Below, piece after piece: positions 5,184-8,027 of a DNA stretch of 34,827 nt (its first letter is position 1; each line of letters begins with the position of its first letter). The notes under the pieces are model-generated. The model searched no databases, was not told the DNA's origin, and was given only the letters and a program-made list of their open reading frames with translations. The DNA is from a virus, in the IMG/VR virus record IMGVR_UViG_3300032299_000208, positions 1 through 34,827 of that record. One strand, written 5' to 3'. The position numbers were made by a program, and so were the translations under genes.

Positions 5184-5957
5184 CTACTCAGTACAATCAC
5201 ATGGCAAATCAAAACCAATAAAAGGTAATGTCATTTGCGATTTGTGCATCTGTATTATTTCAGACCAAGCATAATTTCTTCCCAATCCTTTAATGGTAGT
5301 TAAATTTGCTTGTTTTTCAATAAATAATGCTCTTTCCAGTAAATTTGGATATTTTTCATATAAATCAACTATTTCTTTTGGCTTAGATGATGGGCAAAAA
5401 AAACAAGCTGATTTTCCAACATTTGTAATTCCATGCTTTTTAATAATATCTAAACAATCTTCTCTTTCCCATTGCCACTTAATTAATGGGTATTCATAAT
5501 CATATTTTGGATCATCTCTTTTTGCAGCATTTTCTGCTCTATGTGACTCTCCAGCATCATATCCAATATATTTAACGCATTTTTCTCCAGATTTCCACCA
5601 ATCTATTGCTGGCTGCCAATGATTACAATACTTATCTTGCGGAGCAATTTTATGTTTTTGTGAGCATCTTTTATACCCATAAGCAATTGATGGCAAAGTA
5701 TTTGATCTTAAACATTCTTCTTCTAAATTTTCATAACTTCCATCTTTGCGAACTCTTTTTACAACAGTAATCTTAGGCAATCCATTATCAACAAGCCATT
5801 TACTAAAATTTTCAATATGAGCATAGGTTTCTGGTCTTTCTCCACCAGTATCTGCAAATAAAATTAAATCTATTGGTAATCCTTTTTCATACAGACCAAG
5901 AATCATAGCGGTACTATCAACTCCACCACCAAAAGCAACTATATGTGGTGCTCTCAT
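5184..5957 (-). CDS. PAPS-reductase-family PP-loop ATPase-like protein
   Basis: 257 residues. The N-terminal FGGGVDSTAM (9-18) is a PP-loop (SGGxDS type) that binds ATP or a nucleotide phosphosulfate. FADTGGERPETYAHI (34-48) matches the family substrate pocket. Cysteines lie at KRC (98) and CFFCPSS (185-191), possibly an iron-sulfur site. It belongs to the phosphoadenosine-phosphosulfate reductase/adenine-nucleotide alpha-hydrolase superfamily. Phage members are often annotated as PAPS reductase without proof. DNA modification by sulfur (DndC belongs to this superfamily) is another option, but no other Dnd gene is seen. Starts one base after the stop of the next upstream small gene. Confidence 0.82.
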   Translation of the reverse strand: MRAPHIVAFGGGVDSTAMILGLYEKGLPIDLILFADTGGERPETYAHIENFSKWLVDNGLPKITVVKRVRKDGSYENLEEECLRSNTLPSIAYGYKRCSQKHKIAPQDKYCNHWQPAIDWWKSGEKCVKYIGYDAGESHRAENAAKRDDPKYDYEYPLIKWQWEREDCLDIIKKHGITNVGKSACFFCPSSKPKEIVDLYEKYPNLLERALFIEKQANLTTIKGLGRNYAWSEIIQMHKSQMTLPFIGFDLPCDCTE

Positions 5958-6134: not shown

Positions 6135-6274
6135 AAAATATCTTCCAGCTTTAAGCCTTTTAATAATAATGCTTTGCGTATTTTCATCATTGCTCGCTCT
6201 AATATCTCATGAACAGCTTGGTGGCTTATTCCTTCTGCTTCAGCTATTTGTCTTAGTGTCATTGGCTCGTTCAC
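6131..6274 (-). CDS. Mini sigma-region-4-like helix-turn-helix protein
   Basis: 47 residues. The translation MTLRQIAEAEGISHQAVHEI followed by LERAMMKIRKALL matches the sigma-70 region 4 pattern (TLxEIAxxLGIsxxxVxxIexrAlxKLR). It is essentially a stand-alone HTH. A GTG start at 6274 overlaps the Ref-like stop as GTGA and has GGGAG upstream; the internal ATG at 6262 is the alternative. The stop overlaps the next ATG (ATGA). It may recruit or redirect RNA polymerase, or simply bind DNA. Confidence 0.72.
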   Translation of the reverse strand: MNEPMTLRQIAEAEGISHQAVHEILERAMMKIRKALLLKGLKLEDIL

Positions 6275-6558
6275 TTATCTCCCTCTCCAATTTTTTGACT
6301 GACTCGCTCCAACAGCTCCTCACAGGATATTCCCCATTTTTTTTCAAAACCTTTGATACCCAATCCGTGAACGCCAGAGTTTCCCCGATGATGCTCTGGG
6401 CATAAAGGCAAGATTGGGGATGCAGTCCGCTTAGCTCCATATCTTCGCACATGATGGAGTTCTGACGGAGTGCCTGTAAACCCAAGGACTTCGGAGCATA
6501 AAATACATCCGAGTTCTGCAATCTTGTTAAGGCGCTTCTTTTCATCTTTGGTTGCCAC
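6271..6558 (-). CDS. Ref-type RecA-dependent nuclease (HNH-like)
   Basis: 95 residues. Metal-binding and catalytic residues are laid out as in phage P1 Ref: CILC (18-21), LHHVR (34-38), PLCPEHHRGNSGVHGLG (51-67). The paired histidines and CxxxHH resemble an HNH ββα-metal fold. Ref cuts DNA at RecA-made displacement loops and promotes recombination. Small phage versions are usually encoded near recombination or replication genes, as here. Whether this copy needs RecA is not known. It shares one base with the preceding stop at 6558. Confidence 0.82.
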   Translation of the reverse strand: MATKDEKKRLNKIAELGCILCSEVLGFTGTPSELHHVRRYGAKRTASPILPLCPEHHRGNSGVHGLGIKGFEKKWGISCEELLERVSQKIGEGDK

Positions 6559-6884: not shown

Positions 6885-7036
6885 AATCTTTCCATTTCGT
6901 CTTGTAGCTTTAACCTAGCTTCCCACCCTCTTTTTTGCTGCACTAGGTCTAACTGTTTTCTTCTTGCTGCTAAAGGCCAACTAAGCAACTCTTTTGCCTC
7001 ACATTCATTGCGCCATTCCTCGCTGCTCGTATTCAT
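6797..7036 (-). CDS. Small conserved phage protein, function unknown
   Basis: 79 residues. The start EEWRNECEAKELLSWPLAAR followed by RKQLDLVQQKRG resembles a frequent small phage protein found next to DNA methyltransferases (EWRxxCEAR...LxxVxxKRG). The C-terminal 25 residues are serine/glutamine-rich and lie in the overlap with the next gene. It also overlaps the end of the methyltransferase gene by 32 bp. No catalytic motif is visible. Function unknown. Confidence 0.7.
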   Translation of the reverse strand: MNTSSEEWRNECEAKELLSWPLAARRKQLDLVQQKRGWEARLKLQDEMERLWKLARTKQSSSSSNNQVSMQQPKQIELI

Positions 7037-8027
7037 TTATTCTTTCACCAATCCATCTCATTACTGGTACTGCCATAGAATTACCAAGTGCTTTGTATCT
7101 ATTGCCGTCAGGACAGTTTTCTTTAATATTTGTGTAATTATCAGGAAAACCTTGCAATCTTTCACATTCAATTGGAGTTAATTTACGGATTGCACCAATG
7201 TTTGCAATGGCTACCTGGTTATCTCCCATATCTGCCCTTAATGTTGGAGAAATTTCTTCACTAAATCTATTTGGGTTTCCTTCTCTTTTTGTAATTCCTG
7301 GTTCAAAACCATATGTTTGCACAAAAGGAATATTGCCTCCACCAGTTCCCCAACTGCTTGTAACTGTTTGACAAATTTCACCCATTTCTTTTACTCGACT
7401 GTCAGATGGGTGATTTTCATAGACAATGCTTTTTGCAACATTTTTGGCAGTATTTTGTTTCTTTCTTTTGCCCTTCTCAATATTCCCTCGCAGGCTTTCT
7501 GACTCAAATAATACTTTTGCGGCAGACTCCCAACTTCCAAGACATCCGACAACAAACACTCGTCTGCGTCTTTGTGCGACTCCGAAGTTTTGAGCGTCAA
7601 GCACCCGATAGCTGAACCCATACCCGAGTTCGCCCAACGCCCCAAGGAAGGCTCCAAAATCCCTTCCTTTGCCACTACTGAGGACACCTGGCACATTTTC
7701 CCAAACGCACCACTTGGGTCTAAACTTGTCAAGAATTCCAACATAGGTAAGGGCAAGGTTTCCTCTTGGATCTTCAAGTCCTTTACGCAATCCAGCAACG
7801 CTGAATGATTGACAGGGAGTTCCTCCGACCAAAAGTCCAACTGAGTCATTTATATTCCATTCTTTGTATTTAGTCATATCACCAAAATTGGTGGTTTGTG
7901 GATAATGATGTGCAAGAACTTGACTTGGGAATTTTTCTATTTCAGAAAATCCTACTGGCTTCCAACCCATGTGATGCCACGCTACTGTCGCAGCCTCTAT
8001 TCCAGAGCATACTGATAAATAGTTCAT
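7005..8027 (-). CDS. dcm: DNA (cytosine-5-)-methyltransferase
   Basis: 340 residues. Motif I SAM site SVCSGIEAATVA (5-16), motif IV PCQSFS with catalytic C72, motif VI ENVPG (110-114), motif VIII QRRRRVF (152-158) and C-terminal motifs (LTPIECERLQGFP, then YKALGNSMAVPV) are all intact. The enzyme methylates C5 of cytosine, probably to protect phage DNA from host restriction; the target sequence cannot be read from the protein. There is no partner endonuclease gene. The start overlaps the upstream gene by ATGA. A second open frame lies inside this gene (7391-7849). Confidence 0.95.
   Translation of the reverse strand: MNYLSVCSGIEAATVAWHHMGWKPVGFSEIEKFPSQVLAHHYPQTTNFGDMTKYKEWNINDSVGLLVGGTPCQSFSVAGLRKGLEDPRGNLALTYVGILDKFRPKWCVWENVPGVLSSGKGRDFGAFLGALGELGYGFSYRVLDAQNFGVAQRRRRVFVVGCLGSWESAAKVLFESESLRGNIEKGKRKKQNTAKNVAKSIVYENHPSDSRVKEMGEICQTVTSSWGTGGGNIPFVQTYGFEPGITKREGNPNRFSEEISPTLRADMGDNQVAIANIGAIRKLTPIECERLQGFPDNYTNIKENCPDGNRYKALGNSMAVPVMRWIGERINEYEQRGMAQ
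7391..7849 (-). CDS. ORF overprinted on the methyltransferase gene
   Basis: A 152-residue frame on the same strand as dcm, in another phase, covering roughly residues 60-212 of the methyltransferase. Its sequence is not random-looking: DPSGAFGKMCQ, WANSGMGSAIGCLTLKTSES, then LSDVLEVG...KYYLSQKACEGILRRAKERN. I recognise this order (PSG...WxNxGxGSxxExLTL...LSDILE...YYLSxxAxxGILRRAxxRGxxLP) from separately annotated phage proteins, which suggests a conserved overlapping gene. Caution: database copies may themselves be overcalls of this same alternate frame. No function is known. Confidence 0.45.
   Translation of the reverse strand: MTQLDFWSEELPVNHSALLDCVKDLKIQEETLPLPMLEFLTSLDPSGAFGKMCQVSSVVAKEGILEPSLGRWANSGMGSAIGCLTLKTSESHKDADECLLSDVLEVGSLPQKYYLSQKACEGILRRAKERNKILPKMLQKALSMKITHLTVE

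Follow-up and report, generated by a model that had tools for sequence, protein, structure and literature searches.

Can a single stretch of phage DNA encode both part of a complete cytosine methyltransferase (MTase) and, in another frame of the same strand, a second conserved protein? The question is raised by IMG/VR virus record IMGVR_UViG_3300032299_000208, of which we analyzed positions 1 to 34,827 (34,827 bases, referred to here as the window). An initial annotation had noticed a frame of 152 codons lying within dcm, a dcm-type C5-cytosine DNA MTase gene, and this frame is indeed present on the same strand, inside the 340-codon dcm ORF (Table 1). Specifically, it starts 178 nt into dcm, which places it in the +1 frame of that gene. 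The MTase that hosts it is matched by PF00145 over model positions 1–323 of 324 (E 6e-61), by TIGR00675 to the end of the model (E 1e-60) and by phrog_116 (E 3e-94), and on the first two of these matches it carries the full motif set itself. The neighboring genes encode a portal protein, an endolysin, a RecE-like exonuclease and a Sak-like annealing protein, and thus the window belongs to a tailed phage.

Table 1. Features of the overlapping reading frames, in coordinates of the window.
Feature	Position	Strand	Basis or remark
C5-cytosine DNA methyltransferase, dcm-type, 340 aa, complete	7005..8027	-	host frame of the overlap
Overprinted ORF, 152 aa, ATG to stop (predicted second gene)	7391..7849	-	+1 frame of dcm; open frame, stop avoidance, synonymous constraint, dNN/dNS 0.40
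Putative start codon of the overprinted ORF, ATG	7847..7849	-	start kept in 62/62 relatives
In-frame TAA directly before the ATG	7850..7852	-	sequence
Shine-Dalgarno-like site, AAAGAA, 10 nt before the ATG	7860..7865	-	dcm codons Lys55-Glu56
Conserved C-terminal module of the overprinted ORF, LSDVLEVG..KYYLS.KACEGILRRAKERNKILPKMLQKAL	7409..7552	-	near-invariant columns, pLDDT, dNN/dNS 0.25

Relatives were gathered in two ways, either by the ORF or its profile, or by the MTase protein through amino-acid patterns that take no account of the second frame, and all selection and stop-codon statistics given here rest on relatives selected in the latter way. Among these, the +1 frame is free of stops over the whole stretch in 61 of 62 near relatives and in 76 of 78 DMCA-like relatives, and not one of the same sequences is stop-free in +2. 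As a null model, the synonymous codons of each gene were reshuffled with the dcm protein kept; the expectation is then that 0.31 of 53 near relatives would be open in +1, where 52 are observed, and 6.1 of 77 DMCA-like relatives, where 75 are observed. Stops per sequence number 0.02 in +1, 9.0 in +2 and 3.2–5.8 in the antisense frames, leaving only +1 open. The distant MM1-like MTases are informative because they split into two kinds: 41 with the ORF, in which 0.41 stops are observed and 4.9 expected, and 15 C5-MTases without it, in which 9.4 stops (range 5–17) are observed in that frame and 9.3 expected. That these 15 lie at the expected level indicates that MTase motifs are not enough to hold the +1 frame open. 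Frequent stops among dcm homologs had been named in the initial annotation as grounds for dismissing the second frame, and among the relevant homologs that frame is nearly stop-free. As a separate observation, three loci (L038, L069 and L091) each have one stop codon in the overprinted frame, at a shared position (KAC*GIL), possibly marking losses of the second gene.

The second frame also leaves its mark on the synonymous sites of the first. Across 62 non-redundant relatives, the fraction of synonymous codon differences at conserved residues of dcm is 0.50 before the overlap (codons 1–59), 0.26 inside it and 0.52 after it; within the overlap it amounts to 0.09–0.24 over codons 136–195 and is lowest, at 0.09–0.19, over codons 151–195. 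An independent DMCA-like set gives 0.62, 0.41, 0.26 and then 0.63 along dcm, and MM1-type sets show a weaker drop (0.55, 0.51, 0.33, then 0.62). There is no drop in the 15 control C5-MTases that have no ORF (0.60, 0.63, 0.60 and 0.60). Hence the synonymous-rate comparison that the initial annotation had put forward as a check came out in favor of the second frame, with the drop confined to the overlap and seen nowhere else in dcm.

To separate the two frames, dNN/dNS and dSN/dSS were estimated by counting, in the manner of OLGenie, with intervals from codon resampling that are approximate because sequence pairs are not phylogenetically independent. Within the overlap dNN/dNS is 0.40 (0.30–0.54) and dSN/dSS is 0.21 (0.11–0.72), which is the purifying selection on the second frame, given the first, that characterizes an overprinted gene; the flanks lie at about 1, with dNN/dNS of 1.23 (0.68–2.49) and 0.84 (0.67–1.01) and dSN/dSS of 1.25 and 1.24 with wide intervals. 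The signal is strongest in the C-terminal part of the ORF, where dNN/dNS has an interval of 0.16–0.39 around its value of 0.25. In this part, changes that are silent in the ORF and alter dcm (dNS 0.45) exceed those that are silent in dcm and alter the ORF (dSN 0.24), and the mean pairwise amino-acid identity of the ORF (0.74) is higher than that of dcm (0.69). This pattern is expected of a second frame that codes for protein, and not of an RNA element or an echo of dcm motifs. These evolutionary tests on both frames support the earlier suggestion that one DNA stretch encodes two products: the ORF is very probably a second protein-coding gene in its own right, overprinted on that of the phage C5-MTase and selected as a protein.

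The region around the start of the ORF is also patterned. In the 62 non-redundant relatives the codon at this site is ATG in 49, TTG in 10 and GTG in 3, and in 47 of them a stop lies immediately 5′ of it. Upstream, the Lys-Glu pair of dcm at the Shine-Dalgarno-like site is written AAG-GAG in 31 of 59 cases, compared with 4 of the 103 Lys-Glu pairs that these genes have at other sites; the window has the weak AAAGAA form of the site, and AAGGAG, a strong Shine-Dalgarno match, is found in half of the relatives. On the strength of these signals, namely a kept start codon, a stop immediately 5′ of it and a Shine-Dalgarno-like site upstream, we infer that the overprinted ORF would be translated by internal initiation at its own start codon, from the same mRNA as dcm.

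It is worth considering whether these patterns could arise in other ways. The possibility raised at the outset, that the shadow frame is a passive echo, kept open and similar by dcm motifs and codon bias with nothing translated from it, does explain part of what is seen. In ordinary cellular C5-MTases the ORF finds weak "ghost" matches over its N-terminal ~100 residues, and its N half is about as alike in +2 (0.63) as in +1 (0.64). However, in a search across one phylum these matches proved to be limited to that N-terminal portion and mostly broken by stops, the ORF was present in 0 of the 30 top PF00145 loci of the phylum-wide sample, and the MTases that lack it show both stops in this frame and no synonymous constraint. 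Nor does an echo account for the C-terminal half, where conservation is higher in the ORF than in the dcm frame. Because the synonymous drop is specific to the overlap and absent from the control MTases, we consider this explanation refuted, with a negligible probability left to it. Synonymous constraint by itself cannot separate a protein from an RNA, and the constraint might therefore act on the nucleic acid, as an RNA structure or a regulatory or recombination element. Against this stands the frame specificity of the signal: dNN/dNS is far below 1, stops are avoided in +1 alone and the start codon is kept. Furthermore, Streptococcus phages share an amino-acid profile with Caulobacter or Mycobacterium phages at sites where the dcm residues change, and a nucleic-acid element in place of a second protein is accordingly very unlikely. 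The product could also be made by programmed +1 frameshifting out of dcm and not from a start of its own, which would fit its position in the +1 frame of the same strand; the kept start codon and the frequent in-frame stop directly 5′ of it argue against this, and we give frameshifting hardly any credence.

The overprinted frame is found well beyond the window. Copies of the ORF are present in the dmt gene of phage P1, in phages of Vibrio, Pectobacterium, Caulobacter, Roseobacter, Pseudanabaena, Mycobacterium and Akkermansia, and in gut phages, with divergent copies in Streptococcus phages and in Methanobacterium virus Drs3. Copies also occur in bacterial contigs of several phyla, which are probably often prophages. 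Within one phylum, a clear copy (E below 1e-10) was found in 6 of 398 genomes, one of them with an in-frame stop; in the same sample, some C5-MTase was found in 88 of 150 genomes. The register between ORF and MTase is invariant, with an offset of 1 in all 400 loci tested first and in all 19 loci fetched later that had a match to the ORF profile. The initial annotation had also proposed looking for the ORF in phages without dcm. This search turned up no free-standing copy, as every candidate overlapped a C5-MTase frame at offset 1.

Two candidates for exceptions were considered and rejected. In Curvibacter phage PCA1 (locus L160, 1500–2812) an apparent fusion or relocation comes down to a single indel that puts both reading frames, that of the MTase and the overprinted one, out of register; in this partial genome, the indel is either a sequencing error or the sign of a pseudogene. 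Likewise, gp104 of Mycobacterium phage Thibault (81 aa), the best Foldseek match, is not a free-standing copy and is instead the C-terminal module of the ORF, cut off by an HNH insertion and annotated as a separate gene. In Thibault (L565, 6539–8340) and in KashFlow (L564, 821–2705) the C5-MTase gene is interrupted by an HNH endonuclease ORF, which sits immediately after motif VIII and within the overlapped region. In Mycobacterium phage Dove (L158, 1787–2905) the C5-MTase is split into genes 107 and 108, with the overprinted ORF in the first. Several hosts of the module are large fused or long MTase genes that carry it in their C5 part, namely P1 dmt (L143, 1409–3325) and the genes at L562 (1481–3394) and L563 (1403–3913); among them, the CobraSix MTase is noted as an N6-adenine MTase.

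The arrangement is not without precedent. The window ORF matches phrog_16143 (E 2e-11), as do 75 of 82 window-type members, and ORF14 of Streptococcus phage MM1, the "C5 methyltransferase beta subunit", matches the same family over its full length (5.5e-82); profile-profile comparison by hhalign of the window ORF family with the MM1 "beta subunit" ORF gives a probability of 99.9% (E 1e-36). As judged from these sequence matches, the window ORF is homologous to MM1 ORF14. The earlier remark that the ORF resembles separately annotated phage proteins was thus right about the resemblance, but these relatives are not free-standing genes, as MM1 ORF14 itself lies inside an MTase gene. MM1 ORF14, the 5093-group Streptococcus thermophilus phages and Tn5252 share with the window a small ORF in a C5-MTase gene, on the same strand and in the +1 register. 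The MM1 type differs from the window and P1 type in that it ends shortly after KYFLS, lacking the C-terminal helical module ACxGILRRAxxRxKxLPxxLxxAL. The window ORF does not end in the MM1 manner, and we regard its extra conserved helical module as a difference of subtype, making it a variant within the family. A study of S. thermophilus phages published in 2017 called it "striking" that two C5-MTase frames overlap totally, cited MM1 and Tn5252 likewise and described the overlap without a test for selection (PMC5601072). In the literature that we searched, which was of limited coverage, we found no report of its spread to P1 or Gram-negative phages, or of such a test. The overlap had hence already been noticed in streptococcal elements, and our analysis extends it beyond these, to P1 dmt and other Gram-negative phages as well as to gut phages and an archaeal virus. 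Annotations of phages from many bacterial phyla mostly lack the second gene.

In phage P1, the open +1 frame of dmt is 163 codons long, and in the C5-MTase half of Dmt it carries the overprinted C-terminal module with 62.7% identity to the window over residues 84–142; no second ORF is annotated in dmt in the P1 record. P1 departs from the window in two respects, in that Dmt fuses C5 and N6 MTases and that its overprinted frame differs in the N-terminal part. C5-MTases made of two polypeptides are known. M.EcoHK31I is reported to consist of alpha and beta polypeptides, of which the small one supplies motif IX, and M.AquI consists of two polypeptides split between motifs VIII and IX (PMC3404938). 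The window resembles M.AquI in that two polypeptides would come from one MTase locus, but its catalytic protein is whole and not split; likewise, compared with M.EcoHK31I as described, its large protein has the full motif set, and motif-IX complementation of that kind is rejected. In the two known enzymes a small subunit provides what the large one lacks, and since no motif is missing from the window MTase, filing the window ORF as a subunit of this kind is not justified. Dove, with its split MTase, also has an overprinted ORF.

In an alignment of 82 diverse members of the ORF family, the near-invariant residues lie mostly in the C-terminal half. The AlphaFold2 model is likewise confident for only ~40 C-terminal residues (pLDDT 87–95 over residues 111–140), with two confident helices at residues 117–129 and 136–147, whereas most of the protein outside the C-terminal module is below 60 and the mean pLDDT is 58.8. 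Comparison of the sequence with Pfam, NCBIfam, PADLOC and PDB sequences gave no informative family, and structure searches of PDB and BFVD with this model, of which the N-terminal part is too poor, gave no significant match.

The role that we find most likely, although with slightly less than even confidence, is that of an accessory ("beta") protein made together with the MTase, which would bind the enzyme or its DNA through the basic helix-loop-helix of the C-terminal module; the overlap would keep the two proteins always co-inherited and co-expressed. An argument against this is that the MTase has all its own motifs, leaving nothing obvious for a beta subunit to supply. It is a substantial possibility, though we would not bet on it, that the protein is real and has a job unrelated to the MTase, such as host takeover or anti-restriction, and resides in dcm only through having originated there. 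Overprinted genes often gain independent functions, and a small, basic module that matches no family informing its function would suit such a job. The persistence of the ORF with very divergent MTases (about 38–45% identity) speaks against it, as does the failure to find any copy that escaped dcm. As the overlap itself forces linkage to dcm, such linkage cannot decide between an accessory and an independent role. We tentatively propose, at somewhat under even odds, that a single ancient overprinted gene arose once and resides in the C5-MTases of tailed viruses across many bacterial phyla, P1 included, and of an archaeal virus, where its product would be an essential or regulatory partner of the MTase, largely missed by annotation.

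To our knowledge, DNA phages seldom have long same-strand overlaps in which one gene is fully embedded in the other and both frames show strong evidence of selection. The ORF overprinted on dcm is widespread and is directly testable in phage P1, and in many phage C5-MTase genes a second conserved protein would go unnoticed because gene callers discard it. Related MTases that lack the ORF provide a natural control for asking how a single DNA segment can serve two proteins. There is also a practical side, in that mutagenesis of ORF-bearing MTase genes designed to be silent in the enzyme would unwittingly alter the second protein.

Other features of the window may be mentioned. A DUF7696 protein (PF24751; 6797–7036, minus strand) overlaps the 3′ end of dcm by 32 nt. 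On the same strand, two long ORFs in different frames (6240–6545 and 6271–6558) overlap almost completely, and the 95-aa member of the pair matches RecA_dep_nuc (PF16786) and phrog_1588. A PAPS-reductase-like protein, a common phage auxiliary gene product, is encoded at 5184–5957 (minus strand) and matches phrog_424 (E 4.5e-39).
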